A stretch of DNA of 50,657 nt. Origin: Fimbriimonas sp. (lineage in GTDB: Bacteria; Armatimonadota; Fimbriimonadia; Fimbriimonadales; Fimbriimonadaceae). The position numbers were made by a program, and so were the translations under genes. Location: assembly GCA_031292555.1 (NCBI GenBank), contig JARLGV010000016.1:1-50657 (forward strand). The letters run 5' to 3'. Position 1 is the stretch's first letter. Each line of letters starts with the position of its first letter. The notes beneath the pieces were generated by a model. It was not told the DNA's origin. It was given only the letters and a program-made list of their open reading frames with translations, and did not search any database. Positions 4,456 through 50,428 of the stretch are shown piece after piece.

Positions 4456-4517
4456 CGTTTCCTCATTTTTGGCTCATTCGTGAACCTCACACTTGCGGGT
4501 GAAGGAGGAAACGAAGC

Positions 4518-5843: not shown

Positions 5844-7639
5844 GGCCCGTTCCGATTGCTCTTACTCTCGTCGTTGCCGGACTCTGCACTGTCGGATTCC
5901 TCAAGTTGACTGCGCCGAAAGCCAAGGCCAAGACCCAGTTCACACTCTCGACGGCCGTCATGGGAGCGGTTCGAAAGACCGTCTCGGCCACCGGCACCCT
6001 TGAACCTTGGAGCACCGTTGACGTGAAGTCCAAGGCCGGAGGACGAGTCGATCTATTGGCTGTCGACGTTGGGTCGCGCGTCAAGAAGGGAGACATCATC
6101 GCCCGAATCGACCCGACGGACTCGCTCCTGACGTACAACCAGGCCAGGGCAAGCACCCAATCTGCCGAGGCAAAGGAGGTCCAAAGCACCGAGACGTACG
6201 GAATGACCGTGTCGCAGGACTCGATTGCGGTCCAACAGGCCCGCGCCAATCTCGACGCATCCAAGTCGTCTCTGGCGCAGGCGAGGGCACGACTCGACAC
6301 CGCTCAGAGCGAAAACGAGGCGCAGCCCGCGTTAACGCAAGCCGCGATCGGCCAGGCAAAGGCCGGCTTTGACGCGGCTACTCAGGCAAGAAACAAACTG
6401 ACCGCGACCCAAACGCAGGACAGGGCGGCCGCACAGTCCGCGTACGACCAAGCCATCGCGAACGACAAGAACGCCCAAGTGAACCTGGTCCGCCAACGCA
6501 CCTTGCTCGCCAAAGGGTTCGTTTCGCAATCAACCGTGGACTCGGCCGACGCAAATGCAGGCGTCACGAAAGCGACCGTCAACGCCTCGGAATCGAAGCT
6601 CAACACCCTCGATGCACAGCAAAGGGCGGAACGAGATTCCGCAGACGCCAATGTCGCTCAAGCGCTCGCGGGATACCGCTCGGCGCAGGCGAATTCGATC
6701 GCGATTGCGACCAAGCAGCATAGCTTGGCTGAGTACCGGGGGGCGTACCTCCAGGCGGTGGCAGCCGTCGATACAGCTCAGGCTCAGTTGGCAAACGCGA
6801 TCGCCTCCCAACGCAACGGCCCGATCCGCAAGCAGGACATCGCCAGTTCCGCTGCCGATGTCGCCAGCGCGAGAGCGTTGCTTGCCAATGCCAAGGCGAC
6901 CCTCGACCAGACGGTCGTGACGGCGCCGAGCGAAGGCGTGGTGCTCACGAAGTATGTGGAGCAGGGCACTATCATTACCTCCGGGCTCTCGCTGAACTCG
7001 ACGGGAACCTCAATCGTGACCGTCGGCGACGTGTCGCGGATGTACGTCGACGTCCCGGTGGACGAGACGGATATTGCGGCGATCCACCTAGGCGAGAAGG
7101 TTGACATCGCCTTCGACGCCTTCTCGGACCGAAACTTCAAGGGAACCGTAACCAAAGTGAACCCGCAAGGAGTGGTGGAATCGAACGTGACGACCGTTCA
7201 CGTACGCGTGGAAGTGGACAACCACGAACCGGGCTTCTCGGACTTGAAGCCGCAGATGAATGCCACATGCGAGTTCATCGAGAAGGAGGCAACCAACGTT
7301 GTGACAGTGCCCAGCGAGGCCATTCGGTCCGGCGACGGCGGTTCGTATGTGGAGATCGGGCATGGCGGAACTCCGGTCGGCGCCTCATCAAGCCAACCCG
7401 CTCCCCCGGCCGGTTCGGGGCCACCTGCGACCGGCGGCGGCAAATTCGTGGATATCAAGCTCGAACATAGGCCGATCAAGGTGGGAATCGTCGGTAGCGA
7501 AACGACCTCGGTCGTAGCCGGTCTGAGTGCGGGAGAGATCGTGGTGGTTAGTTCAAGCACTCCAGCCGCTGAGGACGACGCCCCTAAGGCCGCCTTTGCA
7601 ACGGGCCCGGGCGGACCGCCCCCAGGAGGAAAGAAATGA
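5840..7639 (+). CDS. MacA/HlyD-type periplasmic adaptor (RND/ABC efflux)
   Basis: A 599-residue membrane-fusion protein. A membrane anchor lies at about residues 5-22; the first lipoyl half (GTLEPWSTVDVKSKAGGRV) is followed by an unusually long alanine/glutamine-rich coiled-coil hairpin (about 90-345) and the second lipoyl half (TVVTAPSEGVVLTKYVEQGT), then beta-barrel and membrane-proximal domains. At about 600 residues it is clearly longer than MacA-type adaptors (near 370-400), due to the extended hairpin and a Pro/Gly-rich insert and tail (around 515-535 and 585-599). It links the TolC-like duct to the permease; both neighbours overlap it by ATGA. Confidence 0.92.
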   Translation: MRPVPIALTLVVAGLCTVGFLKLTAPKAKAKTQFTLSTAVMGAVRKTVSATGTLEPWSTVDVKSKAGGRVDLLAVDVGSRVKKGDIIARIDPTDSLLTYNQARASTQSAEAKEVQSTETYGMTVSQDSIAVQQARANLDASKSSLAQARARLDTAQSENEAQPALTQAAIGQAKAGFDAATQARNKLTATQTQDRAAAQSAYDQAIANDKNAQVNLVRQRTLLAKGFVSQSTVDSADANAGVTKATVNASESKLNTLDAQQRAERDSADANVAQALAGYRSAQANSIAIATKQHSLAEYRGAYLQAVAAVDTAQAQLANAIASQRNGPIRKQDIASSAADVASARALLANAKATLDQTVVTAPSEGVVLTKYVEQGTIITSGLSLNSTGTSIVTVGDVSRMYVDVPVDETDIAAIHLGEKVDIAFDAFSDRNFKGTVTKVNPQGVVESNVTTVHVRVEVDNHEPGFSDLKPQMNATCEFIEKEATNVVTVPSEAIRSGDGGSYVEIGHGGTPVGASSSQPAPPAGSGPPATGGGKFVDIKLEHRPIKVGIVGSETTSVVAGLSAGEIVVVSSSTPAAEDDAPKAAFATGPGGPPPGGKK

Positions 7640-8952
7640 GCGCAACGACTTCGACCGCAAGAACCGACAACGCACTCAAGACTACAACTCAAGACTCGGC
7701 CAACCGGAGCGCCTTGCAGCCTCCGGCAGTCTGGGACCTCGTTGCCATCGGCGTGAGCGTCATGATGGCGATGCGCGGAGTCAACGCCAACAAGTTGCGC
7801 GCGTTTCTGACGACCCTGGGCATCGTGATCGGAGTCGGGGCCGTCATCGTCGCCATCGGCATTGGCGAAGGATCCAAGCAAGCGGTGGCGGCCAGTCTGA
7901 AGAACCTTGGAACCAATACCCTCACCGTTATGCCCGGCCAGCAGAAAAACGGAGCCATCTCGATGGGCTTTGGAACCAAGAGCACCCTCAAGCTGACCGA
8001 CGCAGAAGCGATTCTGAAACGGTGCAAAGACGTGTTGAACGTATCGCCTCAGGTGAGTCAAGGCGCCCAAGTGAAGGCTGGGGACAAGAACGACAACGTG
8101 ACCGTCAACGGCGTGGGAGTGAATTACCCGACGATCGAGAACCACATCGTAGAGCACGGCCGGTTCTTTACCGAAGACGAAAACCGGAAGCGCCGGCGGG
8201 TTGCTGTGCTTGGCGCCACCACCGCATCGGACATTTTCGGCGGCGCCGATCCGATTAACCGGACCATCCGGGTTGCCGGCCAGAGCTTCCAGGTCATTGG
8301 AGTGCTCAAGAAGAAGGGCGGCGTGGGGCCGAGGAATCCCGACACGGGCGTATATGTCCCGTTGATGACGGCGATGAAGCGCCTATTCGGGCTGGAATAC
8401 GTTCAGACCATCACTTGCCAGGCCCGAACCTCGGCGGTGATGGACGATGCCCAAAACGAGATCACCGCCCTTCTCCGGCAAAGGCACCGACTCCTAACAT
8501 CCACCAACGACTTTATCCTATTCAACCAAGCGGACCTTATGGAAGCCCAAAGCCAGCAGCAAGGGACATTTACAACGCTGATCACGTGCCTGGCGATCGT
8601 GTCGCTGGGCGTCGGCGGCATTGGGATCATGAACATCATGCTCGTCTCGGTGACCGAACGGACGCGGGAGATCGGCGTCCGCAAGGCGATCGGCGCGCGT
8701 CGGCGAGACGTACTGGCGCAGTTCGTCGTGGAGGCCCTGTTCCTGTCGTCACTCGGAGGAATTCTGGGCGTAGCCGGAGGCTACGCAGGAGCAGCCATCG
8801 TGGCAAAGACCAACGGATGGTCGGTAAGCATCGCGCCAGGAACCGTTATCTTGGCGTTCGGGTTCAGCGCCGTGGTCGGAGTCTTCTTCGGCTTCTATCC
8901 GGCATTCAAGGCATCCAGGCTGCGGCCTATCGAGGCATTGCGATATGAATAA
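7636..8952 (+). CDS. MacB/FtsX-type ABC transporter permease
   Basis: A 438-residue permease of the MacB class without its own ATPase domain. After a soluble N-terminal tail, TM1 lies near residues 48-73 (LRAFLTTLGIVIGVGAVIVA), a large extracytoplasmic MacB core domain follows (about 75-300), and three TM helices close the protein inside an FtsX domain with the diagnostic TERTREIGVRKAIGARRRD loop. It acts as a mechanotransmission permease together with the ATPase encoded immediately after it, whose start overlaps its last codons by eight bases. Confidence 0.94.
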   Translation: MSATTSTARTDNALKTTTQDSANRSALQPPAVWDLVAIGVSVMMAMRGVNANKLRAFLTTLGIVIGVGAVIVAIGIGEGSKQAVAASLKNLGTNTLTVMPGQQKNGAISMGFGTKSTLKLTDAEAILKRCKDVLNVSPQVSQGAQVKAGDKNDNVTVNGVGVNYPTIENHIVEHGRFFTEDENRKRRRVAVLGATTASDIFGGADPINRTIRVAGQSFQVIGVLKKKGGVGPRNPDTGVYVPLMTAMKRLFGLEYVQTITCQARTSAVMDDAQNEITALLRQRHRLLTSTNDFILFNQADLMEAQSQQQGTFTTLITCLAIVSLGVGGIGIMNIMLVSVTERTREIGVRKAIGARRRDVLAQFVVEALFLSSLGGILGVAGGYAGAAIVAKTNGWSVSIAPGTVILAFGFSAVVGVFFGFYPAFKASRLRPIEALRYE

Positions 8953-9688
8953 TGAGCTGATTCGAGTGAGAGGTCTTGGAAAGACCTATTCGTCGGGAAC
9001 GAATCGAGTGGTGGCGTTACAGGACGTGGACCTGACGGTAAACCATGGCGACCTCGTAGCGATCATGGGACCATCGGGGTCTGGCAAGTCGACGTTCATG
9101 AATGTGATCGGATGCCTGGACACGCCATCGGAGGGTTCCTACCAGTTGGACGGCCTAGAGGTCAGCGACCTGACCGACGACGAACTGGCGATGCTGCGGT
9201 GCACGAGAATCGGGTTTGTCTTTCAAAACTTCAACCTGATCCCACGCACCAGCGCACTAGCGAACATCGAGATGCCCAGGTTCTACAACTTCCGGGGACT
9301 GAAGGGGCGGCTCCAAGCCGCGCGCCGGCGCCTGGAAGAGGTCGGCCTCGGCGATCGGAGCCATCATACGCCAAGCGAGATGTCCGGCGGCCAGCAACAG
9401 AGGGTGGCGATCGCCCGCGCTCTCGTGAACGACCCCGCGCTCATCCTCGCTGACGAGCCCACCGGTGCGCTCGACTCGCGAACGTCCGAGGAGATCATGG
9501 CGATATTCCAACAATTGAACCGTGATGGTCGAACCGTCGTGCTGGTCACCCACGAACCGGATGTCGCCGAGCACTGCCGCCGAATCGTCCGGTTCAAAGA
9601 CGGCCACATCGTTTCAGATGAACCCGTAAAGCAGCCGATCGACGCTCGAGAGGTTCTCGGGGGCGCCCGCGTCGCCCAAATTGCATGA
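8945..9688 (+). CDS. MacB/LolD-type ABC transporter ATPase
   Basis: A 247-residue ABC ATPase with Walker A GPSGSGKST (K48), Q loop VFQNFNL, signature MSGGQQQRVA (146-155), Walker B LILADEPTGALD (catalytic E171) and H loop VTHE. The order and motifs place it in the MacB/LolD group that powers type VII ABC systems. It overlaps the permease gene and ends the operon. Together with the adaptor and TolC-like protein it should form a tripartite system exporting a small molecule, peptide or lipid from the periplasm. Confidence 0.95.
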   Translation: MNNELIRVRGLGKTYSSGTNRVVALQDVDLTVNHGDLVAIMGPSGSGKSTFMNVIGCLDTPSEGSYQLDGLEVSDLTDDELAMLRCTRIGFVFQNFNLIPRTSALANIEMPRFYNFRGLKGRLQAARRRLEEVGLGDRSHHTPSEMSGGQQQRVAIARALVNDPALILADEPTGALDSRTSEEIMAIFQQLNRDGRTVVLVTHEPDVAEHCRRIVRFKDGHIVSDEPVKQPIDAREVLGGARVAQIA

Positions 9689-9910
9689 AGGGTCAGTTGA
9701 GTTCGCGTACTTCGGCGACGGCCAGGACACTTAAGGGACTATGGGGTGGGCGCCATCGAGCAATCTAAATGCATGGACGGCCTCATCCCGGGTTGCCTGC
9801 GATTGAACGAGTTCGCGTGGGAGATGGAACTCCGCCTTACTGGGAACGGAGCCTTCCTGACTCGCATGTCTGCAGTGCACATGTCGAGAGTCTTGGTTTG
9901 CGAGCCATTG

Positions 9911-9926
9911 TGCCTGCCGCCAGGCA
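9911..9926. terminator. Short hairpin between convergent genes, weak terminator candidate
   Basis: TGCCTG and CAGGCA form a perfect 6-bp stem with loop CCGC between the end of the efflux operon and the convergent nucleoside hydrolase. No T-run follows on either strand, so a terminator role is only suggested by position. The rest of 9689-9977 holds no gene I can support. Confidence 0.3.
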
Positions 9927-9977
9927 GGGAAGTAAGTTGAGATCCGAGGAAGCGAGTCTAGGCGAACATGCTCCGCC

Positions 9978-11000
9978 CTACTCCTTCCGCAGACCCGCCG
10001 CCCCCCGCTCGTCGCCGGTCAAGCGTCGCACCAAGAACTCCTGATAGGCCTTCATGTCCTTCCAGGCGGTGGCTACCGACATGGGCTTGGCGTCCGGGTC
10101 GATGACGGTGAGTCCGGTGTCCGTCACTCGAATCTTCAAGCGCTCCATCTCACACAAGTTGTGCTGGATCGCGAGGTACACGGCTACGGTGTCGAAGAGG
10201 GTCGTGGACTGGTGCTCCGCGTCCGCATTGCCTTGCTTGGCCCAGATGCGGTAGTTATCGAGGACCGTTTCGGCGACCGGGTCGTGGCTGTTCACGAAGC
10301 GCTGGTAAAGCTCGCCCCCGAGCGACACGATCCCACAGGTGTCCAACGGCGTGATCGTCACCGACTTCCATGGCGCCGAAAACACTCGCTGAGCCGCCTT
10401 GACATCGGCTTTGACGTTCCACTCCTCCGAGATCGCCTTGCTCCCGCCATAGCCAAGGCGAACGCTCCCGGCCATGCTGACCAGATTTACCCGGCGAGCG
10501 ATTCCAGACTCCCTCTCAAGGGCGGCGGCGAGATTGGGCATCGGTGCGAGGCAAATCACGGTCACCGGGCCGCGCGAATGCATAACCGTGTCGATGAGCG
10601 CCTGAATGCCGTCTTGGTAAACGTGGCCCGGGTATTGCTCCAGGCGATAGTCCTTCACCCAACCGGCAATCTGTCCCTCTCCTTCCACGCTGGTTTTCAA
10701 CCCAACACCGACCCCCACGTCGGTTCGTCCGCATTTCTCCAGGAACTTCGCCAACAGCTTCGCCCGATATTCGGTCCGGCCATAGTCCCCCACCACCAAT
10801 TTCAAGTCGAGTTCGGGCGACTTCAGCAGCAGCCCCAGCGCCCACGAGTCGTCGATGTCGTCTCCGATGTCCGTATCGAGAATGACGGGAATTCTCCTGC
10901 TCGCGGCAGACGGCGCCGCGACCGCCCGACCCACCAGGCACACAACCATGAGCGCAGTTAAGAGCCGCGAAACAGTAACGCAAGGGCAAGTGATCTTCAT
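9978..11000 (-). CDS. Secreted inosine-uridine-type nucleoside hydrolase
   Basis: The protein hydrolyses N-glycosidic bonds of ribonucleosides. The family fingerprint DTDIGDDIDD (calcium-binding aspartates) sits at residues 42-51 counted from the chosen start. I use the internal ATG at 11000 because it begins a standard signal peptide (MKITCPCVTV..LLTALMVVCLVGRAVA); the longer frame from 11060 would bury it. Length of 340 is usual for the family. It is divergent from a LacI regulator, with a probable operator/promoter between them, so it may be part of that regulon. Confidence 0.85.
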   Translation of the reverse strand: MKITCPCVTVSRLLTALMVVCLVGRAVAAPSAASRRIPVILDTDIGDDIDDSWALGLLLKSPELDLKLVVGDYGRTEYRAKLLAKFLEKCGRTDVGVGVGLKTSVEGEGQIAGWVKDYRLEQYPGHVYQDGIQALIDTVMHSRGPVTVICLAPMPNLAAALERESGIARRVNLVSMAGSVRLGYGGSKAISEEWNVKADVKAAQRVFSAPWKSVTITPLDTCGIVSLGGELYQRFVNSHDPVAETVLDNYRIWAKQGNADAEHQSTTLFDTVAVYLAIQHNLCEMERLKIRVTDTGLTVIDPDAKPMSVATAWKDMKAYQEFLVRRLTGDERGAAGLRKE

Positions 11001-11131
11001 ATCGGAACGGCCTGAGCGTATCCTACTCGGCACGTTGCATGTACAGGATGGAACAGCCAAATTCGTATCCAGAACCGGATGCGCCGAAATACCGGCAATC
11101 GATCGATCGCTACCGACGGGACCGAAAACCG

Positions 11132-11162
11132 TTGACTTTCGCTTTAATGTAACGATACATTA
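11132..11162 (+). promoter_or_regulatory. LacI-family operator overlapping a sigma70-like promoter
   Basis: TAATGTA (11145-11151) and TACATTA (11156-11162) form a perfect inverted repeat around ACGA, with the central CG typical of LacI-family operators. A TTGACT box at 11132-11137 and TACATT at 11156-11161, 18 bp apart, make a plausible -35/-10 pair reading toward the LacI gene at 11192. The operator covers the -10 box, so binding should block transcription: autoregulation is the simplest reading. Confidence 0.65.
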
Positions 11163-11191
11163 ATCTATAGCGATGGTGATTCGATAGACCC

Positions 11192-12229
11192 ATGAGCACG
11201 ACCTTGCGCGATGTGGCGAACGCGGCCGGTGTCTCCGTGATGTCGGCTTGCGCGGTCTTGACCGGCGGCGGACGCAATGTCAAGGTGAGCGAGGAGAAGG
11301 CCAAGCTCATTCGTGAGAAGGCGCAGGAGCTACGTTACGAACCCAACCTGGCAGGGCGCAGTTTGCGGACCCGCAAGACCGACACCATCGGCGTCGTCTT
11401 CCAGCATCTGACGACGTTTGGCGAGGAGCCCTACTACTACCAGCAACTCCTCGACGGGATCATGGCCGCGCTCTTTCCTCGCGGATACACGCTTGCGCTG
11501 TCGCCCCAGCTCATCAAGGGCGAGGGCACGATCCAGGTTTCCAACGGCCGATTCGATGGCGTCCTATGGTGCTGCCCGGACTTGGTCGAAACCTCCATCG
11601 AATCCGCCAAGAGTCTACGGCTGCCCGTCGTGATGATCCATGCGCCAAAGGAGGTCACGGCAGGACTGCCGACCTTTGCGGCGGACAATGAGCGGGCGAT
11701 GGAGAGGATCGTCAACCACCTCGTCGGCTTGGGCCACGAGCGCATCGGCTTTGTCGTGAAACCTCACGTGGCGAGGACCTCAGAAGGGAAAGCGAGGATC
11801 AATGGGTTCCTAAAAGCCGCGGAGAGTTTGCACGTCAAGGGTGAGGTTCTCTTGTGGGAATATGCGGTCGAAGAGTTGTCCAACTATGTACCAGACGCTG
11901 CACCCCACACGGCGTTGGCGGCGTACAACGACGTTCACGCCGGACACATCCTGTCGCGGGCAAAGGATCTGGCCATCCGCGTGCCCGAGGATCTGTCCGT
12001 CGTAGGATTCGATTCGTCGAACTTCTGCGAGCGGACCCAGCCTCGCCTTACCTCCGTTCATCAACCCATCGAGCGCATGGCGCGCGAGGCAACCGAATGC
12101 CTGCTACGACTCATTGACGCCGGCCGGGAGAACCTCTCGGAGACTCGGCTCGACACGAAACTATACGACTGCCAGCTCGACATCCGGGAATCGACAGCCG
12201 CACCCAGTCCTCACCGGAGGGGAACTTAA
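11192..12229 (+). CDS. LacI-family transcriptional regulator
   Basis: A 345-residue repressor: N-terminal LacI helix-turn-helix (TTLRDVANAAGVSVMSACAV, with hinge helix LAGRSLRTRKT) and a periplasmic-binding-protein-like sugar domain (from about residue 62, IGVVFQH, to the conserved LSVVGFDSS and PRLTSVHQPIERMA motifs). It stands one base ahead of the secreted-protein gene at 12231 and is divergent from the nucleoside hydrolase; the inverted repeat at 11145-11162 is its likely operator. The ligand is unknown, probably a sugar or nucleoside. Confidence 0.93.
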   Translation: MSTTLRDVANAAGVSVMSACAVLTGGGRNVKVSEEKAKLIREKAQELRYEPNLAGRSLRTRKTDTIGVVFQHLTTFGEEPYYYQQLLDGIMAALFPRGYTLALSPQLIKGEGTIQVSNGRFDGVLWCCPDLVETSIESAKSLRLPVVMIHAPKEVTAGLPTFAADNERAMERIVNHLVGLGHERIGFVVKPHVARTSEGKARINGFLKAAESLHVKGEVLLWEYAVEELSNYVPDAAPHTALAAYNDVHAGHILSRAKDLAIRVPEDLSVVGFDSSNFCERTQPRLTSVHQPIERMAREATECLLRLIDAGRENLSETRLDTKLYDCQLDIRESTAAPSPHRRGT

Positions 12230-12230
12230 A

Positions 12231-12857
12231 ATGGAACACATACTACTGGCACTAATTCTTCTGGGCTCGCCGTCCCAGTCCGCGACCACCCAAGCAACCC
12301 ATTTGGGAACCGCCTCCAAACGCGTGGTGGTGTGGGACGGCGAAACCCACGACAAGGGTGGAAGCTGGGTGAACCCGACCACTTCGACTTTCCTCAGGAC
12401 GCACAGCGACGCCCATAGCGGGAACACTTCCCTTGAACTGAAGTTCCACGACAAGCAGATCTGGATCGGCTGTGGGTTCGATTGGTTCGAATGGAAGACC
12501 GGACGCACGCTCGGCACCGATACGAGCAAGATGACGAATCTGAACTTCTGGATCAAGTCAACCGGCTTGACCGAGGACCTTCAGGTCCAACTGCTCTGCA
12601 ATGGCGACGTGGTCGACACGCCCGAGCATCACGCACCGAAAATGAGCATCGCGAAATACTGCCCTGTCTTCCGCGACGGAAAGTGGCACGAGGTCGTGAT
12701 CCCCCTTCGCGATATGGACTATCCCAAGGGCTACGATCCCAAGGTAGTGACCATGATCGACTTCGGATTCAACGCCGAAGGAGAGGCGAACGGATCAATC
12801 CTCCTCGACGACATCGGATTCGACAACCGGCAGGTGGGTAACAAGAGCTCGAAGTAA
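12231..12857 (+). CDS. Secreted carbohydrate-binding-like beta-sandwich protein
   Basis: A 208-residue protein. I choose ATG 12231, one base after the LacI stop, because GGAGGGGAA lies just upstream and the frame opens with a signal peptide (MEHILLALILLGSPSQS). The mature part resembles the galactose-binding-like beta-sandwiches of CBM11-type modules: an N-terminal KRVVVWDGE strand, SGNTSLELKF, TNLNFWIKS, KWHEVVIPLRDM and the closing ILLDDIGFDN. It has no catalytic domain, so it may bind a polysaccharide at the cell surface; its partner is not evident. Function is inferred from fold pattern only. Confidence 0.65.
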   Translation: MEHILLALILLGSPSQSATTQATHLGTASKRVVVWDGETHDKGGSWVNPTTSTFLRTHSDAHSGNTSLELKFHDKQIWIGCGFDWFEWKTGRTLGTDTSKMTNLNFWIKSTGLTEDLQVQLLCNGDVVDTPEHHAPKMSIAKYCPVFRDGKWHEVVIPLRDMDYPKGYDPKVVTMIDFGFNAEGEANGSILLDDIGFDNRQVGNKSSK

Positions 12858-12882
12858 AGCGTGTGCAAGTCTCCGCCACTCG

Positions 12883-12902
12883 AGTTCTCAGGATTGAGAA
12901 CT
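12883..12902. terminator. Hairpin between convergent genes, terminator candidate
   Basis: AGTTCTCA and TGAGAACT form a perfect 8-bp stem with loop GGAT, 25 bp after the stop of the secreted-protein gene and before the convergent gene ending at 12920. The following bases on the plus strand (GATTGCATTT) have only a weak T-run, so intrinsic termination is plausible, not certain. Confidence 0.45.
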
Positions 12903-12919
12903 GATTGCATTTCAAGGTC

Positions 12920-13507
12920 CTAGGCCGATTCGAATCTTGGGTCGTCGCGTTCGTAATCTTGTCCCGGCACAAGATCGAAACGCATGTACTCGTCAGAGTC
13001 GGCGATCGATCGTTCCTCGTCGTCGAACTCGTAGTTATAGTTGTGCTCGTGGGGGAAGTCGATCCTGACTTCCCCCTCCGAGTAGCCCAGGCTATCGAGC
13101 AAGCCGCAGAACTCTTCCAGGTCCCCGTATAGGTAGATCGTTTCGTGCCGGTCGTAGACGATCAACGAGTTGTCGCCGCACTTGATCCAAAGGTGGTGAC
13201 GCCCGTCGCCCTCCAAGTACGCCCGGTATGTCTCAAGATAGGCGACGAGGGCCACCCGGTCGAGCCATTCCTTCAGCTGGTAACGCCCAGGTTGCGTCCT
13301 TCGAGGGACAACCAACACATACAGGATGCCGAACGGCCCGGAGCTCTGATCGGTTAGCTTGAGAATCAAATCGATCCCGCTATCGGCGATGGCCGCTACA
13401 ACCGAGTCCCGGTTCTTTAGCCGGACACGCTCGTAAACTGGCTTCCAGCGGTGAGGCACTGGAGCAGGATCGGCGTCACGGGATATTTCACAAAACTTCG
13501 GGCGCAT
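12920..13507 (-). CDS. Hypothetical acidic protein, 195 residues
   Basis: I do not recognise the family. The protein is soluble, with a mixed alpha/beta N-terminal part (VVAAIADSGIDLILKLTD..FGILYVLVVP), a HHLWIKCGDNSLIVYDRHETIYLYGDLEEF beta-rich centre and an acidic tail rich in Asp, Glu and Tyr. No signal peptide or membrane segment is seen. The pattern recalls small immunity-type or cytosolic proteins, but this is only an impression. Coding is supported by protein-like composition and by a frame that is open between two convergent, independent transcription units. About 270 bp upstream (13508-13774) hold nothing I can assign. Confidence 0.6.
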   Translation of the reverse strand: MRPKFCEISRDADPAPVPHRWKPVYERVRLKNRDSVVAAIADSGIDLILKLTDQSSGPFGILYVLVVPRRTQPGRYQLKEWLDRVALVAYLETYRAYLEGDGRHHLWIKCGDNSLIVYDRHETIYLYGDLEEFCGLLDSLGYSEGEVRIDFPHEHNYNYEFDDEERSIADSDEYMRFDLVPGQDYERDDPRFESA

Positions 13508-13774
13508 GGTTCAGCCTCGGCATCGAACAACCATACCTCCAATGCTTGGACAGGATCCTTCGGCGCTTGCCAAAGGCTTACGGCATACCTGCTGGAATGC
13601 TGGCTACCAAAAGCGAGAATCGCTGCATTTCAGGGGAATGGCGCTACGATAACAAGTCGTACGTGACCTGCCGTTTTGCCAGAGACGGCTTGCGTACCAG
13701 ACGTCTGTTCCAATCGGCCCATGCGACTGGGCGAACATCCTCGGGCATCATCAGAGGGATCAGAAAACGCACGC

Positions 13775-39884: not shown

Positions 39885-40691
39885 ATGGATAGCAGTCCAA
39901 TTCCACCCGACGACTCAGCAGAACCGCCCACTACAGGCAAAGAGTCAGAGTCTGAGAATCAAGATGCGACATCTGGACCAGCCAGCGTCGCAAAGGCAAC
40001 TGGAGCAGAGCAACGCAAAAAGAAGAGGGGCCGGACCGCGAACGCAACTGGAGCCAAACCGCCCCATAGCCAAGATGACGCCAATCCGGGAGCTCGTCTC
40101 GTCCAGGTGCTGGGGCGGAAACTGGTAGTCATCCTGTCCGTGGGATCGGTAATTCTCGCGGTGGCCCTATGCCTGCTCTTGGGTCTGTTTCCATCCATTC
40201 AAGCGGCAGAAGCCTCAAGGTTTTTTCTCCTGTTACTGATCAGCTTTTTGTTTGGGGTCTTTGCATTCACGCTATATCCGAGCAATTACAGATTGGACTT
40301 AAGCCGAGGCTATCAAATTCCGATTGTTCTTGTTGGCCCCGCGGCGCTTTGGATTGGCCTTTTCATCTTTTTCCTGAACATCTTCCCGAAGGATAAACGC
40401 ATCGGAGTCGTTTTTAAGCCGGACGCCAATTCGCGCCCGATCCGGTCGGGTTCGACCTTGTTACTAGGATGGGATCAACAACCCCCTGCCTATTACATGA
40501 TTCAGAATCCGAAGATTGGTGACGTACTCTCTTCAGGATTGATCGATGGCTTTTACATACAATTCGACCCAAGTGTCAAAGCCTACACCCTCAATATCGG
40601 CATCGGAGCATCGGCCACCAATATTGACACCAGGTGCAAGATAGTCTTTAGGGCTGGTGCAACCAGCTATAGCATTGAAGGAACCAATTGA
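39885..40691 (+). CDS. Hypothetical three-helix membrane protein
   Basis: A 268-residue protein starting at ATG 39885 (AAGGA upstream). A charged, Ser/Pro-rich cytoplasmic tail of about 75 residues (with KKKRGR) leads into three membrane helices at about 80-102, 113-131 and 146-167, and a C-terminal beta-rich domain of ~95 residues (IGVVFKPDANSRPIRSGSTLLLGWDQQPPAYYM..) that should lie outside if the tail is inside. No family is recognised. The next gene starts two bases after its stop, so the two are a unit. Confidence 0.7.
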   Translation: MDSSPIPPDDSAEPPTTGKESESENQDATSGPASVAKATGAEQRKKKRGRTANATGAKPPHSQDDANPGARLVQVLGRKLVVILSVGSVILAVALCLLLGLFPSIQAAEASRFFLLLLISFLFGVFAFTLYPSNYRLDLSRGYQIPIVLVGPAALWIGLFIFFLNIFPKDKRIGVVFKPDANSRPIRSGSTLLLGWDQQPPAYYMIQNPKIGDVLSSGLIDGFYIQFDPSVKAYTLNIGIGASATNIDTRCKIVFRAGATSYSIEGTN

Positions 40692-40692
40692 C

Positions 40693-42453
40693 ATGAAGCG
40701 TTCAGAAATGGCTTGCCTTGCGATCCTGTTAGCCGTTCCAATTACGGCGCAGGATCAAACTCGAATGGACCTAACTAAGCACGGAAGGGTCATAACTGGG
40801 CAGGTACTAGAACGAATCAAGCAGGCGTGCTCAGACTACACATGGTCAGTACAGCACAACCAGCCAAGGCCAAAGGGCTCGCTAAAACTAACCGACGACG
40901 TGAGGGAGAAGTTGGCAAACGGTCAGCTATGGGCGATCTTGGTGCCTGATCACAAGATTGGCGGCGAGAACTTGGTATCTGCCGTTGGCGCGTCATCGGC
41001 ACCGGCCGATTTCACGGTGCTAGACGATGAGTACCAACTCTTGCAGGCGTATGCAAGCGTCGTGACTGATCATGCATCGGCGACCCATGCGAGCTACAAG
41101 AAGCATAAGGCTGCGGGCGACAACGCAGCGGCGAAACAAGATATCGTTGCTTTTGAACAGACTGTCGGGTCATCGCAAGCCGATCCCACGACTAACGGAC
41201 TAGTTGGCTCGATTCTCTCGGATGTCGACAAGGCGGATCTCGCTGGCTACTCAATGGATTGCGTTAACCAGTTCCGGTCTGACCTGCTTAAGTCGTACAC
41301 GTCAGCGGGAATAGATTTATCTGCGGTCAAGACTCCTCGCCAGCTAAACTCCTTTGCGGACGTAAGCCCGATGGGTTCGGAGCTACTTAGCACGGATCTG
41401 TCCAGGTGGTTTGGCTCGTCTTCAGAGATAACAAAGGTAGCCCCCGGCAAAGATGGCTCGTCGGTATATGGCATTTGGAACGGCACCTCCCTGATGTTGG
41501 TGCCCTACAGCGGAGGAACCAGCGCGGGGGAGCCATCGGCCAGCCAGCTTGAGCAATACGTCAAAGGTAAATTTGGAGTGACGGATCTGAGTTCGAATAC
41601 CGATCTGACACGCTTTCAATGGCCCGGCCTGGAGTCGTATTCGTCGATCAGCCCGCTGTTTACTGGCGACGGTACTAGCCCATCATTCTATCCTCACAGG
41701 TTCGATTGGGGTGGACTGTCAACGATTACAGCGCATGCCCCTCAGTTATACGTTCCGCCTGGCAACGAATATGTTAGCAAGTGGTATGGCGCCCAGTCGT
41801 ACCCAGGCACCTTGAACAATCTGTGGGGCAACGGCTACGTCAACTCGCCGTTTTATACTGCCGCAGGGGTCCCCGAACCGGTAGTGTCATTCAGCCGCGG
41901 TTGGACCGAGAAGTCGACATATCCTCAAGGCGAGTCTGTCGCAGCGCTTGCGGTTAGCATCCTTTACACGGGTCCCACACCAAGCTTGGAGTCTGTTTCG
42001 CGACTTGCCTTCGGCGTTTCATCCGACACGGGAGGGCCCCCTGCTCAGGATTGGACACCCGCTTCGCTGTCGCCTCATTCGCTAGATACGGGACAGACAA
42101 TGGATATTGTCGTGGGTATCTATGCAGGAGCCGCCAATGCTACTGCTCTCATCGGTGATTCAACGGCTCTTCAGACTGCCCTAAAGTCCGGCTGGAGCAT
42201 CATCGGCAAACTACCGATTGGACATGACAATGGCAGCTTAAGCGACGCGATCAATAAGTACCTTGCCTCCACGGATGGGTTTCTGGGATCTATCTGTGTG
42301 AGTGTGGAGCGAAATGAGTTCACTGGATACAACTGCAAACTCACACCCTTCAGCAACGCCAATGTAGTAAAGCCGAAGGCGGGGAGCGGATCCTGGTACC
42401 GCTTTACGACCCCGTCCGGGGCGTCTCATTGGGTTCAAATCACGGTGCCATAA
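40693..42453 (+). CDS. Hypothetical secreted protein, 586 residues
   Basis: ATG 40693, one base after the upstream stop, starts a signal peptide (MKRSEMACLAILLAVPITAQ). The mature protein has no recognised domain: an N-terminal helical part (about 20-190), then a Ser/Gly/Tyr/Trp-rich beta-type region (YGIWNGTSLMLVPYSGGTSAG, QLYVPPGNEYVSKWYGAQSYPG) and an end SGSWYRFTTPSGASHWVQITVP. It resembles no enzyme I know; a surface or secreted structural/adhesion role is a guess. Coupled to the membrane protein upstream. Confidence 0.65.
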   Translation: MKRSEMACLAILLAVPITAQDQTRMDLTKHGRVITGQVLERIKQACSDYTWSVQHNQPRPKGSLKLTDDVREKLANGQLWAILVPDHKIGGENLVSAVGASSAPADFTVLDDEYQLLQAYASVVTDHASATHASYKKHKAAGDNAAAKQDIVAFEQTVGSSQADPTTNGLVGSILSDVDKADLAGYSMDCVNQFRSDLLKSYTSAGIDLSAVKTPRQLNSFADVSPMGSELLSTDLSRWFGSSSEITKVAPGKDGSSVYGIWNGTSLMLVPYSGGTSAGEPSASQLEQYVKGKFGVTDLSSNTDLTRFQWPGLESYSSISPLFTGDGTSPSFYPHRFDWGGLSTITAHAPQLYVPPGNEYVSKWYGAQSYPGTLNNLWGNGYVNSPFYTAAGVPEPVVSFSRGWTEKSTYPQGESVAALAVSILYTGPTPSLESVSRLAFGVSSDTGGPPAQDWTPASLSPHSLDTGQTMDIVVGIYAGAANATALIGDSTALQTALKSGWSIIGKLPIGHDNGSLSDAINKYLASTDGFLGSICVSVERNEFTGYNCKLTPFSNANVVKPKAGSGSWYRFTTPSGASHWVQITVP

Positions 42454-42490
42454 GGTGTAACCAATGTGTCCGGAATGGACCCTTCAAACT

Positions 42491-42535
42491 TGGCGGCCTC
42501 GGAGGGACTCGAACCCCCGACGCCCTCCTTAGGAC
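42491..42535 (-). tRNA. 3' half of tRNA-Arg(CCT): attachment-site scar
   Basis: On the minus strand the sequence matches canonical tRNA numbering from position 32 to 76: T33, anticodon CCT (34-36), A37 A38, stem GGAGG (39-43), variable GCGTC, T arm GGGGG-TTCGAGT-CCCTC, acceptor strand CGAGGCC, G73 and encoded CCA (42491-42493). Positions 1-31 are absent; the bases beyond 42536 do not complete the anticodon stem. Such 3' halves are left where an integrase inserts an element into the anticodon-to-CCA part of a tRNA gene. By geometry the element lies at higher coordinates and the intact tRNA at its far end, outside the window. Confidence 0.88.
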
Positions 42536-42704
42536 AGTCGGGGATTTAGGTTCAAATTGGGGCGGATTTGGCGGCCGTGGTGTAGTCCGTGTGGTAGTTC
42601 TTAATCGATCCTACTCTGTTTGGGACGGCCGTGCTGGCATGAAACTAATTGAAAGCACTCGACTCTGGAGCACAAATGCCGTGCGAGCGAACCCTAAGCC
42701 TGGA

Positions 42705-42732
42705 TTGATCGCAAACCAGACTCTAATATAAT
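42705..42732 (+). promoter_or_regulatory. Sigma70-like promoter for the TIR gene, leaderless
   Basis: TTGATC (42705-42710) and a consensus TATAAT (42727-42732) are 16 bp apart. The GTG start at 42739 lies six bases after the -10 box, where transcription should begin, so the mRNA would be leaderless. Confidence 0.7.
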
Positions 42733-42738
42733 GCGGTT

Positions 42739-45267
42739 GTGCGAAAAGCGTTTCTCAGCCACTCGACTATCGACAAGGAATATGTTCGGGTTATTGCAAA
42801 CCGCCTTGGTCGAAGCAAGCTCGTTTTTGATGAGAAGACATTTGCTCCGGGAGTCGACTTCCGCGAATCAATACTGAGCGGCCTTGATGAGACAGCTTTG
42901 TTTGTTTTCTTTGCATCTAGCGCTTCACTTGCATCAACTTGGTGTACTTATGAGTTCAATGAAGCCCAAATTCGAATTATCAAGCAAAAGATCGCAAAGC
43001 ACTTAGTAATCATCATCGATCGAATTATTACCCCTGCTGACTTGCCCGCGTGGATGCAACAAGCAAAGATAGTAGTCCAGCCTAGACCTGCACAGGCCGC
43101 AAGAGACGTGCTTCACGGTCTGCTTTCCGCCCTGGACCTCTCTTCAGCACGACCATTCGTTGGTCGTTCGCAGGCAACGCAGCACTTGGTTAATCAATTT
43201 GCCGAAGTGAGTCCGCCGCACATCCTGGTCTTCTCCGGCTTAGATGGCATCGGACGCAGATCGATCCTCGAAAACTTCGCGCCTCAGAACCTTGGGCTCC
43301 CAGCTGGTCCAGCCGCCATTCTCGGCGAATCAGCCAGTTTGCAAGATTTGTACCTTTGGTTGTTAAGCGAGACGGGCGATGTGGAATCGCGGAAGGACAT
43401 GGCAGCCCAAATCGCAGCTTTCGCAAAACTATCCGCTGGAAATCAGGTAACTGAATGTGCGCAGCGAATTGCGATCTTGTGCGACGACGGCAACCTACCA
43501 ATGATCATTGATCAAGGAAGCATGCTTGCCGATGACGGAACTTACCTTAAAGAGTATAGCGACTTCCTGAAAGCATTCAATTCGATTCCTGGAGATCGAT
43601 ATCTTGCGCTCATACACCGTCGGGCTCCGTATTTAACGCCACTATCACTTGCGACTGATGTGTACTCCGAACGCGTGCCTCCGCTGGATAAAAATGAGTC
43701 CCGACTATTGGTTATTCAACTCTTGAAAAGGGTTGGCGCAAATGCGAGCAACGAACAGTTAAGTGAGCTTGTTGAAGCGGTCGACGGGTTCCCTCCGGCA
43801 GCATATTTTCTTGCATCCTCCGTGGAGCATTACGGCCTTTCGGCCGTAATCTCCGACAAGTCGCTCCTAAGTGACTTCAAAGCGCGAAGCTTTTCAAATT
43901 TTTTAAAATCCATACCTCTTACAAGTGACCACTGGCTACTGTTGAGGTACCTATCTGGCGAGATTGCAGCTCCATTGTCGAGCCTAGCAATTGCTTGCAA
44001 CCTTGGCCAAGAAGTGCTGGCACCGACGTTACGTTATTTGGTGGACCACAGTCTCATCGTGGTCTTGGATGACCGTTACATGATTGCCGCACCAATTCGC
44101 GACGCAGTCGGACGTGTGGGCGGCTTCCTTGGCCAACAGGACTATCTGGCCATTGCGGACAGGTTGACTGGAGCATTTTGGCAGCCTGACTCCGTAGCGC
44201 CCGTTATAGAGGTTGTAGACGCTACCCTCCATGCGATTGCTCGAGGTACCGGGCAGCTTGATAGCTTTCGGGACCTAGTCCGCCCGTCCTTACTCCACAG
44301 ATTCTCAGTCGAAGCTTACCGGAAGAAGGAGTGGCAGCTTGCCCTCCAATATGGACAACGTGCTCAGGAGATGGGTCTGACTCGTCCAGACCTAGCAGCC
44401 GTTGTGTTTAAATCACTTGTTCAACTTCAAAAGTGGGACGAGGCAGCGCATTTGTTGGAGCAGATAAAGAATAGGGGTGACCGTCAGGCTCCATATTTAT
44501 TGGCATTTATGCTTCGAAAGCAGCATCGTCATGTTGAAGCTGCCAAGGCCTTGCGCGATGCCATCGAATCCGGTGATACAAGCTTTTCCACATACCGCGA
44601 TTATGCCGACAGTCTATATCGTTCAGGAGATTTGAAACAGGCTCTCAACTATATTCAGAAAGTTCGGGATCGTGACCCTGAGAATGTTTGGGTTCTGGAT
44701 CTTTATATTTCAATTTCGATGGATCTCGGGCGGCACGATGTCACAGAAGCGTTGCTCCGTGACATGGAGCGTTATGATTTGGATAAGAGGTTCATCCACC
44801 ACCGCCGCGCGACTTATTACGCAAGTCAAAGGAACTTTGACCTTGCTTTAAGTGAGGCAGAAGCAGCTTGTAATGCTGGCACGGCTCAATTAGCTGCGTT
44901 TGCGACTAAGGCAGACGTTCTTGTCGAACTCGGACGTTTTGCTGAAGCTCGTAACGTTCTTGAAGAAATCCATCAGCATTTTGGTTCGCAAGCAAGGGAC
45001 GTACAGCAGGGGTTAAGATGTAAGCTACTTCTCCGTGAAGGTAATTGGGCAGCAGCTAAGAGCGCCTGGGACCGAATGGAGGACCGATCCAATAGAACTG
45101 CTCAGGCTCTACTACTTCGAATCTATGAAGCAAAATCTAAGGACAATTCTCTATCGCTGACTGCCCGTGAAGACGCGCGGAAATCTGCTGATCAATTAGC
45201 GGCCGGCCTACCAGGCGGAATTGATCCTTTGGTCGTGCCACCTGACTCAATGAATGCACCAGAGTAG
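42739..45267 (+). CDS. TIR-STAND-TPR protein, probable antiphage sensor
   Basis: An 842-residue protein. Residues 3-130 are a TIR domain (KAFLSHSTIDKEYV; STWCTYEFNEA with the likely NADase glutamate E72). A STAND/NB-ARC-like ATPase follows (about 138-400): P-loop GLDGIGRRS (167-175) in which the usual lysine is R173, Walker B LPMIID (D258), and an NB-ARC-like GFPPAAYFLA. Then a winged-helix-like part and TPR-like helical repeats (about 510-800). Such TIR-STAND proteins sense phage and deplete NAD+. GTG 42739 is the only sensible start since the TIR strand begins at residue 3. Defence function is inference; the degenerate P-loop is notable. Confidence 0.85.
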   Translation: MRKAFLSHSTIDKEYVRVIANRLGRSKLVFDEKTFAPGVDFRESILSGLDETALFVFFASSASLASTWCTYEFNEAQIRIIKQKIAKHLVIIIDRIITPADLPAWMQQAKIVVQPRPAQAARDVLHGLLSALDLSSARPFVGRSQATQHLVNQFAEVSPPHILVFSGLDGIGRRSILENFAPQNLGLPAGPAAILGESASLQDLYLWLLSETGDVESRKDMAAQIAAFAKLSAGNQVTECAQRIAILCDDGNLPMIIDQGSMLADDGTYLKEYSDFLKAFNSIPGDRYLALIHRRAPYLTPLSLATDVYSERVPPLDKNESRLLVIQLLKRVGANASNEQLSELVEAVDGFPPAAYFLASSVEHYGLSAVISDKSLLSDFKARSFSNFLKSIPLTSDHWLLLRYLSGEIAAPLSSLAIACNLGQEVLAPTLRYLVDHSLIVVLDDRYMIAAPIRDAVGRVGGFLGQQDYLAIADRLTGAFWQPDSVAPVIEVVDATLHAIARGTGQLDSFRDLVRPSLLHRFSVEAYRKKEWQLALQYGQRAQEMGLTRPDLAAVVFKSLVQLQKWDEAAHLLEQIKNRGDRQAPYLLAFMLRKQHRHVEAAKALRDAIESGDTSFSTYRDYADSLYRSGDLKQALNYIQKVRDRDPENVWVLDLYISISMDLGRHDVTEALLRDMERYDLDKRFIHHRRATYYASQRNFDLALSEAEAACNAGTAQLAAFATKADVLVELGRFAEARNVLEEIHQHFGSQARDVQQGLRCKLLLREGNWAAAKSAWDRMEDRSNRTAQALLLRIYEAKSKDNSLSLTAREDARKSADQLAAGLPGGIDPLVVPPDSMNAPE

Positions 45268-47889: not shown

Positions 47890-49062
47890 ATGAATATTCT
47901 GCTCGTAGAATTGTGCGGTAATCGACCGGAGTTCAATGAACCTCTTGGATTAGGATGCCTGTCGTCTGCATTAACGCGCGATAAGCGATTAGTGATTACA
48001 GATATGTCTTTTCACTGGAACTTAGAGCACGGCCCATACCCTCCAAGCGACAAGATAAGGGAAGCTCATATCATAGGGGTGTCGATACAGATTCGAGCTT
48101 TTCCGAATTTTCGTGAGCTGTACGAGCACATCCGTAAGATCAACTCGAAAGCTCTGATTGTTGTAGGAAATGTCGTTCCAACATTTGGCTATGAGCAGAT
48201 CTTGCAGGAGTTTCCCGAAGTTGTCTGCGTACGGAGCGAAGGAGAGCTCGCCATCTGTGAACTTGCCTTCATTCATCAAAGCAGGCAGATAGCTCCGAAC
48301 GCACTGCACCAGGTCGCAGGTATAGCTTTTCAGAACGGCGATAGCGCTCAGGTAAATCCGATCAAACTGTCAAACCTGAAGGAGTATTCACATCCCGACC
48401 GTCCATTTCTCTCGTTCATTCGCGAGAAAGGCGGGATTGCTCGGATTGAGGGAAGTCGTGGTTGCCATTGGGGTCGCTGCGAGTTCTGTTCCGTCGCAGA
48501 GCGGTTTGGTTTCTCTAATTGGCGACAGTTTGAAGTAGCGCACATAGTAGAGGAACTGCGTATTCTAAGTAGCAATGGCATTCGGAGCCCATACTTCACA
48601 GACGAGGACTTTTTCGGGCGAAACTACGAGAGAGCCATTTCGCTAGCGCATGCCATCATCGCAGCCAAGAAACTTGGAGAGATTCATGCAGACATGAACT
48701 TTTTCATTTCATCGCTTGCAGCCGACATTAAAGATGATCGAGGTTACGAAGCCGTTCGCCACCTTAGAGCTGCGGGATTGCGCGAAGTATTCGTCGGGAT
48801 AGAGTCTGGCGTAAAGGATCAACTCAAACGATTCCAAAAGAAAGCCACTGCAGACACGAATACACTTGCACTGGAGAGACTTTCTGCAATCGGCTTGCAG
48901 GTTGATATCGGGTATATCATGTTCGATCCCTTTACGAAGTTCGAAGATTTGTCAATTCATATTGATTATCTTCGAAAGCTTACACTTGACGGGTGCCATT
49001 CTCGTGTGATTAAGGGACTAAGGATTCAACCTGGTCTGCCCCCCGTAAATGAAGACGCGTAA
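47890..49062 (+). CDS. B12-binding radical SAM protein, 3' end replaced by an IS element
   Basis: The 390-residue frame has a cobalamin-binding-like N-terminal domain (1-~130; NILLVELCGNRPEFNEPLGLGCLSSAL, IIGVSIQIRAF) and a radical SAM barrel. The cluster motif is GCHWGRCEFC (C192, C197, C200), a CX4CX2C spacing rather than CX3CX2C. FTDEDFFG and REVFVGIESG are typical of B12-radical SAM proteins. Residues 382-390 and the TAA stop are encoded by the left end of the IS3 element that begins at 49032, so the original C terminus is lost; most relatives are longer. Substrate unknown; the linked DUF4062 gene suggests a defence or modification role (inference). Confidence 0.85.
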   Translation: MNILLVELCGNRPEFNEPLGLGCLSSALTRDKRLVITDMSFHWNLEHGPYPPSDKIREAHIIGVSIQIRAFPNFRELYEHIRKINSKALIVVGNVVPTFGYEQILQEFPEVVCVRSEGELAICELAFIHQSRQIAPNALHQVAGIAFQNGDSAQVNPIKLSNLKEYSHPDRPFLSFIREKGGIARIEGSRGCHWGRCEFCSVAERFGFSNWRQFEVAHIVEELRILSSNGIRSPYFTDEDFFGRNYERAISLAHAIIAAKKLGEIHADMNFFISSLAADIKDDRGYEAVRHLRAAGLREVFVGIESGVKDQLKRFQKKATADTNTLALERLSAIGLQVDIGYIMFDPFTKFEDLSIHIDYLRKLTLDGCHSRVIKGLRIQPGLPPVNEDA

Positions 49063-49100
49063 ATTAGAGTTCTCCCCGATAATCTAAATCGAGGAGCACT

Positions 49101-49403
49101 GTGAAGAAATCGAGATTTACTGAAGAGCAGATCGTTCGGATATTGAACGAGGTGAGTGCCGGCAAGTCGGTTCGCGAGGTGTGCGCAGCACACGGCGTGA
49201 GCGATGCGACCTTTTACACTTGGAAGCGTAAGTACGCTGGCATGGAGACCCAGGATGTCGGCCGCTTGCGGGAGCTTGAGAAAGAGAACGACGACCTGAA
49301 GCGGCTTTTGGCCGAGCGGGACTTAGAGGTGTCCGCGGTAAGGAAGCTGTTCCGAAAAAACGGATGGTCGCTCCCCAGCGAGCTGCGGGAGCGAAGTTTC
49401 TGA
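49101..49403 (+). CDS. IS3-family transposase OrfA
   Basis: A 100-residue DNA-binding subunit with an HTH_8-type helix-turn-helix (RFTEEQIVRILNEVSAGKSV..VCAAHGVSDATFYTWKRKY) and a leucine-zipper-like tail (LRELEKENDDLKRLLAERDLE). It starts at GTG 49101 after an AGGAG site. Its gene overlaps OrfB in the -1 frame, so an OrfAB fusion transposase can be made by frameshifting at 49355-49361. Confidence 0.93.
   Translation: MKKSRFTEEQIVRILNEVSAGKSVREVCAAHGVSDATFYTWKRKYAGMETQDVGRLRELEKENDDLKRLLAERDLEVSAVRKLFRKNGWSLPSELRERSF
49355..49361 (+). other. Programmed -1 frameshift site A_AAA_AAC
   Basis: Six A and one C in the OrfA frame read CGA AAA AAC, the classic X_XXY_YYZ slippery heptamer. A -1 shift here continues directly into CGG ATG, the OrfB frame, giving the OrfAB transposase usual for IS3 elements. 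Confidence 0.8.
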
Positions 49404-50233
49404 TGTCGGAGGGATTGAGCGTTCGACGGGCTTGTTGGATTGCCTGCGTTTCGACGGCCGAGCCGTACCGTGAGCCGGCGCCGGACAAGGACGCAGAACT
49501 GCGAGACAAGCTGCGATCGACTTGGCGCCCGAACATGGGCTACCGGATGGCGCACGCGCTTGTCAGGGATGCATTCGCTCCTCTGAACGTCAAGCGCGTC
49601 CATCGGATCTGGAAGGAGGAAAAGCTGGGGCGTATGAAGCGCTACCGCAAGAAGCGCACTGGTCAGAGCGTACCGGTGAAGGCCGAATACCCAAACCATG
49701 TGTGGTGTGTCGATTTCTGTTTCGACACCTGCATGAACGGAACGAAACTCAAGATCCTAGCGATCAAGGACGAGTTCACCAGGGAGTGTTTGGCTCTGGA
49801 GGTCGGCACACGCCTTAGGTCCCGCGATGTGCAGCGTGTGCTCAGGGACTGCTTTGAGATCTACGGTGCCCCGGAGTTCCTTCGCTCGGACAACGGTAGC
49901 GAGTTCATTGCACGGACGCTCGCGGTGTTCCTCAGCCAGTCGGGAACACGGACGCATTTCATCAAGCCAGGCAGTCCCTGGCAAAACGGATTCATCGAGA
50001 GCTTCAACTCGCGCCTGAGAGCCGAATGTCTCGACGTCGAGGTGTTCTACAACCTGGCCGACGCTCAAATGAAACTGGCGATCTATCGCCGGTACTACAA
50101 TGAGGAACGGCCCCATTCGTCACTTGGCTATCGCCCCCCGGCGGTCGCCGCGCGATTGTTGGACTCCGGTCGGGCTACGCCCTCCCTACATCCAACAATC
50201 TCCATGACCCAATCATCGGAGAACTCTAGTTAA
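49364..50233 (+). CDS. IS3-family transposase OrfB (DDE integrase domain)
   Basis: A 289-residue catalytic subunit with an HTH_21 segment (RSTWRPNMGYRMAHALVRD) and a retroviral-type integrase core. The DDE triad is visible as D in VWCVDFCFDTC, D in FLRSDNGSEF and E in NGFIESFNSRLRAE, and the family ending YNEERPHSSLGYRPP is present. All catalytic residues are intact, so the element may still be active. It is made mainly as an OrfAB fusion. Confidence 0.94.
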   Translation: MVAPQRAAGAKFLMSEGLSVRRACWIACVSTAEPYREPAPDKDAELRDKLRSTWRPNMGYRMAHALVRDAFAPLNVKRVHRIWKEEKLGRMKRYRKKRTGQSVPVKAEYPNHVWCVDFCFDTCMNGTKLKILAIKDEFTRECLALEVGTRLRSRDVQRVLRDCFEIYGAPEFLRSDNGSEFIARTLAVFLSQSGTRTHFIKPGSPWQNGFIESFNSRLRAECLDVEVFYNLADAQMKLAIYRRYYNEERPHSSLGYRPPAVAARLLDSGRATPSLHPTISMTQSSENSS

Positions 50234-50428
50234 GATGTCTTCACGAAAGGGGGCAGACCAGGGTCCCGCCCTCCATCCGATTACCACCATCATGCCATAC
50301 CCGATCAGGTTTCCCAGTGAGCAGATAGTAGCAGCTATCCGTTTCTTATTCATTTGATTCCCATTTGGGTAGTTCAGCAGTCCAAGTGGATGGGTGGGGG
50401 CTTGGGCACATTTTCCATGCAGGCTCTT

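Follow-up and report, generated by a model that had tools for sequence, protein, structure and literature searches.

A displaced tRNA-Arg(CCT) 3' half at the edge of a probable defence-gene island and a tRNA insertion hotspot in Fimbriimonadaceae

We found that a displaced 3' half of tRNA-Arg(CCT) in a contig of Fimbriimonas sp. very probably records site-specific integration into this tRNA gene, with the scar and the intact tRNA-Arg(CCT) on another contig (C117) as the two ends, at a family-wide insertion hotspot. The window, which means here the whole stretch of 50,657 nucleotides that was analyzed, is the entire contig C65 of a 6.46 Mb genome in 140 contigs (G000). One edge of a defence-gene island is thereby fixed and its docking site identified. 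Moreover, a shared insertion hotspot is revealed in a phylum that has received little study; many cargo segments at this hotspot are recombinase-less, and at least one of them has moved between genera.

The tRNA-Arg(CCT) fragment and its surroundings

The features around the fragment are listed in Table 1. A preliminary description of this DNA had read the 45 bases as tRNA nt 32 to CCA without a 5' half, and this reading proved exact in position, on the minus strand. ARAGORN found no tRNA over the window, and hence no 5' half beside the fragment, and Rfam likewise gave no tRNA over the window at gathering thresholds. A tolerant 45-base pattern, searched in all 6.46 Mb, matched only the window fragment and the intact tRNA on C117, and its reversed control gave zero matches; therefore, a chance origin of the match is excluded. 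The C117 gene (113-188, minus strand) is the single intact tRNA-Arg(CCT) in the genome. An intact copy with an identical 3' half had been anticipated to the right of the window: the gene is indeed present in the right orientation, but it is identical at 44 of 45 bases only and lies on a different contig.

Table 1. Features on both sides of the tRNA-Arg(CCT) fragment, in window coordinates
Feature	Coordinates	Strand	Sequence
Flanking gene nearest the scar, outside the island; 598 aa, without a Pfam match	40657..42453	+	
Scar/tRNA similarity extending about 10 bases past CCA, common to C117 with a 2-base gap	42483..42490	-	CCAAG..TTTGAAGG
Displaced 3' half of tRNA-Arg(CCT), nt 32-76, CCA encoded; attachment-site scar	42491..42535	-	GTCCTAAGGAGGGCGTCGGGGGTTCGAGTCCCTCCGAGGCCGCCA (reverse complement)
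Element-side attachment arm, non-tRNA stretch, 70 bases	42536..42605	-	
Motif, exact	42547..42555	-	TTGAACCTA
Tandem 12-bp repeat, like integrase arm-type sites	42576..42598	-	ACTACCACACGG ACTACACCACG
TIR-TPR protein, 842 aa (TIR_2; PADLOC TIR-NLR over residues 1-178), defence-like	42739..45267	+	
AbiEi-like protein, 268 aa	45374..46180	+	
DUF4062 protein, 356 aa	46798..47868	+	
B12-binding radical SAM protein	47890..49062	+	
IS3-family insertion sequence; ORFs 49101-49403 and 49364-50233	49031..50262	+	ends CCTGGTCTGCCCCC / GGGGGCAGACCAGG

When an element integrates into the 3' half of a minus-strand tRNA gene, the island lies between the fragment on the left and the intact gene on the right. 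The order in C65 is flank, fragment and presumed island, with the contig stopping 8.1 kb past the scar; C117 includes 112 bp of the island side next to its tRNA, which is oriented as required if the island lies rightward of the scar. Since each contig breaks off within the presumed island, the island's interior, size and integrase are missing rather than shown absent. When the ends of C65 and C117 were matched against the assembly, no other contig shared either of them, which ruled out joining the two contigs in this way. No tyrosine recombinase was found on C65, which covers 8.1 kb of the presumed island. The integrases on contigs C100, C35 and C31 of the same genome were rejected as the enzyme of the island because no tRNA-Arg site or arm is nearby, and the hotspot integrase family (A1) was rejected because it is absent from this genome. 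A search by synteny gave no clean empty site in relatives, since gene order around the site is not conserved within the genus.

The preliminary description also held that gene content and base composition change exactly at the fragment. Gene content does switch there, from metabolic and prepilin-like genes on the left to defence-like genes and an insertion sequence on the right. No AbiEii partner was recognized by eye in the 0.6 kb after the AbiEi-like gene, and the radical SAM gene is probably truncated, as its reading frame ends inside the IS3 element. The claim on composition needs qualification. The GC content is 60.7% at 1-24 kb, 56.7% at 24-36 kb, 54.6% at 36-42.5 kb and 49.6% at 42.5-49 kb. 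Within 24-49 kb the best change point is 42,590 (3-lnL interval 40,110-42,890); when the whole window is considered, the downward drift of GC from 24 kb onwards shifts it to 37,821. Thus, GC does change at the scar, on top of a gradual fall.

Further examination of the DNA beside the scar revealed conserved stretches outside the tRNA. G061, which belongs to a different genus, has a scar and flank that align with the scar and arm of the window (42487-42598) at 81% identity over 113 bases. The TTGAACCTA motif, with at most one mismatch, adjoins 27 of 47 scars, compared to 1.35% of random 61-bp windows. A copy of the 12-bp repeat also lies in G016, about 100 bp beyond the 3' end of the intact tRNA-Arg; 2-mismatch matches to the repeat elsewhere are at background level. 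Judging from these sequences, the motif and the repeat probably represent arm and core sites of an integrase. On the other side, GGTGTAACCAATGTGTCCGGAATGGACC lies immediately outside the scar (42454-42482) and is possibly an insertion-sequence end; G002, G017, G061 and G106 have similar sequences directly 3' of tRNA-Arg or of scars.

The genome contains one clear scar and a decayed one. The latter is a second tRNA-Arg(CCT) 3' half on C135 (78963-79013, minus strand, nt 26-76, 78% identity), with no intact tRNA within 10 kb. It has the TTAGCTTCAAATTGG arm as in G004, and its T-arm resembles that of the intact tRNA of G004.

tRNA-Arg(CCT) as an insertion site in Fimbriimonadaceae

The same tRNA-Arg(CCT) 3' half recurs behind the intact tRNA in relatives, often in tandem, with several 3' repeats behind one gene and spaced 0.6-52 kb behind it, single-contig genomes included. 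A total of 37 segments bounded by the tRNA or a scar (0.6-52 kb) were mapped in 23 genomes; the hotspot records within the family include chromosome CP021423.1. Dozens of scars from other genera break at nt 27-32, as in the window. That tRNA-Arg(CCT) is an insertion hotspot of Fimbriimonadaceae (Armatimonadota) is thus well supported, and no prior description of such a hotspot in this family or phylum was found in the open-access literature. In G004, the intact tRNA-Arg (L041:2297-2372) differs in the T-arm and the 3' strand of the acceptor from the four scars behind it (3701-13551), as if its 3' half had been exchanged for that of an incoming element.

Of 85 family genomes, 10 encode a tyrosine integrase (377-388 aa) about 114 bp from the CCA of an intact tRNA-Arg. 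Its invariant residues R221, H325, R328 and Y363 are taken to be the putative catalytic positions. Tyrosine recombinases were detected in four of the 37 segments (in G026, G101, G102 and G106), which are the first elements behind tRNA-Arg; these four segments also encode a large serine recombinase. The remaining 33 contain neither PF00589 nor PF00239 and carry cargo only. Such cargo includes two gene pairs with a PIN-domain member and an AbiE pair in G004, and the Kdp potassium system in G104. Elsewhere, copper/cation efflux genes and a module for nitrate transport were recognized by eye in the sequences. In eight recombinase-less segments, both ends retain an exact GGTCTCTC or AGTCTCTC arm motif. 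It is worth noting that two related types of conserved arms go with two subtypes of the tRNA-Arg integrase, so that trans-mobilization can be assayed; the movement of integrase-less islands thereby becomes a directly testable question.

One recombinase-less cassette, for copper/cation efflux, is shared by G011 and G106, which belong to different genera, and its homology spans the whole length between the attachment sites. CusA is 96.4% identical between the two, whereas RpoB is 71.1% identical, which shows that the cassette moved between genera. CusB (83.5%) and CusC (69.3%) are less alike than CusA, and the cassette itself is therefore a mosaic. The hydrolase cassettes of G001 and G096 and the copper cassettes of G015 and G018 have no clear excess of identity over RpoB and thus do not prove transfer. 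In G015, a truncated remnant of a tyrosine recombinase (L050:7063-7250) lies directly behind a scar, outside the copper cassette.

Integration and other explanations

The scar itself is an ordinary integration scar. Very probably, a mobile element took the half of tRNA-Arg(CCT) from the anticodon loop to CCA as its attachment site and integrated there site-specifically. The tRNA would thereby have been made whole again on C117, with the displaced original 3' half staying behind as the scar at the opposite end. The DNA from 42536 to the contig end would then be island, and the DNA to the left would be outer flank or an older layer. Across the family, several elements pile up behind one tRNA, some of them bringing a dedicated tyrosine integrase and many keeping only attachment sites and cargo. 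We infer that a tyrosine recombinase carried out the integration in the window and that C65 and C117 are continuous through one or more elements; recombinase-less cassettes would be mobilized in trans. Integration is favoured by the scar and the correctly oriented intact tRNA, the arm shared with G061, the TTGAACCTA motif and repeats, and the GC change point at 42,590, as well as by the spaced 3' halves in relatives and the integrase beside the tRNA in the 10 family genomes. The island-edge reading of the preliminary description therefore stands as regards the tRNA, its orientation, the arms and the hotspot, but neither an integrase nor the far end is seen here, as the contigs break on both sides. 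The absence of family A1, the lack of an empty site and the GC drift to the left of the scar also count against integration.

The decay of a tRNA gene or a stray duplication, with no site-specific integration, would account for the missing 5' half and the one base that differs from the intact copy. This is barely credible, given that the break falls at the same positions as in the scars of other genera and that conserved non-tRNA arms adjoin the scars. An origin of C65 and C117 in separate organisms or strains of a mixed assembly or bin is also very improbable: contigs often end beside tRNA-Arg sites and the contamination estimate is 2.64%, but the scar lies 8 kb inside its contig without any tRNA 5' half, and single-contig genomes have such arrays too. 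A reading in which the fragment is the inner boundary of two tandem elements, with an older island rather than the original chromosome on the left, fits the GC of 24-42 kb (55-57%), which is already below that of 1-24 kb, the layered elements common at this tRNA in relatives, and the second, decayed scar on C135. We consider it rather unlikely, as the window has no further scar and the genes on the left read as ordinary metabolic and prepilin-type ones. Another reading, which we regard as a tentative possibility, is that tRNA-Arg(CCT) serves as an integron-like capture platform, at which small recombinase-less cassettes bounded by attachment sites (carrying toxin-antitoxin, defence, and copper and potassium transport genes) would be inserted and exchanged across genera by an integrase provided in trans from other elements at the same tRNA, the window island being one layer.

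Relation to known systems and other elements

An integron consists of an IntI integrase and folded attC sites that are recombined as single strands; the hotspot differs in that its sites are halves of a tRNA gene flanked by arms, which is the arrangement of phage-type integrases. The hallmark genes of tycheposons include a deep-branching tyrosine recombinase. As described in a study of other islands, the tycheposons of Prochlorococcus are tRNA-bounded, cargo-carrying elements with a tyrosine recombinase, and the hotspot elements resemble them at the level of this description (PMC10872708). In the Islander tRNA/tmRNA islands of tyrosine integrases, a regenerated tRNA lies at one end and a displaced fragment from the anticodon loop to CCA at the other (PMC4383910). 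The intact tRNA and displaced 3' fragment observed here correspond to this arrangement, with the difference that the integrase and second end of the window island are beyond the contig breaks. The window thus has the anatomy by which tRNA-targeted islands are defined, apart from an integrase and an empty site, neither of which was seen.

Tandem islands offer a closer comparison for the hotspot in relatives. The ssrA islands of Dehalococcoides lie several in tandem behind one RNA gene, each bounded by a 3' repeat, and 15 of 31 are without an integration module and have been proposed to be cis-mobilizable (PMC3146451). Tandem members behind one RNA gene and recombinase-less members are common to both systems; Dehalococcoides uses tmRNA and a serine recombinase, whereas Fimbriimonadaceae use tRNA-Arg(CCT) and, where a recombinase adjoins the tRNA, a tyrosine recombinase. 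In the additive flexible genomic islands at tRNA-Lys of Methylophilaceae, the repeated last bases of the tRNA delimit successive cargo blocks (PMC10872708). The repeats bounding cargo are likewise tRNA ends in Fimbriimonadaceae, but they are about 45-50 bp of tRNA-Arg(CCT) rather than 20 bp of tRNA-Lys. The hotspot is of the same kind as these two systems.

Among the viral contigs searched for hotspot elements, the only hit was IMGVR_UViG_3300023174_000336, which carries an intact tRNA-Arg(CCT) of its own that shares much of this 3' half (L162:3347-3422). No relatives of the integrase were found among these contigs, and residence of the hotspot elements on viral contigs was rejected on this ground. 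Remoter relatives of the integrase were observed at other loci in G003, G018, G019, G076 and others, and the family therefore probably has further target sites. G003 contains seven integrase-family matches, and G076 has three that are about 11 kb apart on one contig.
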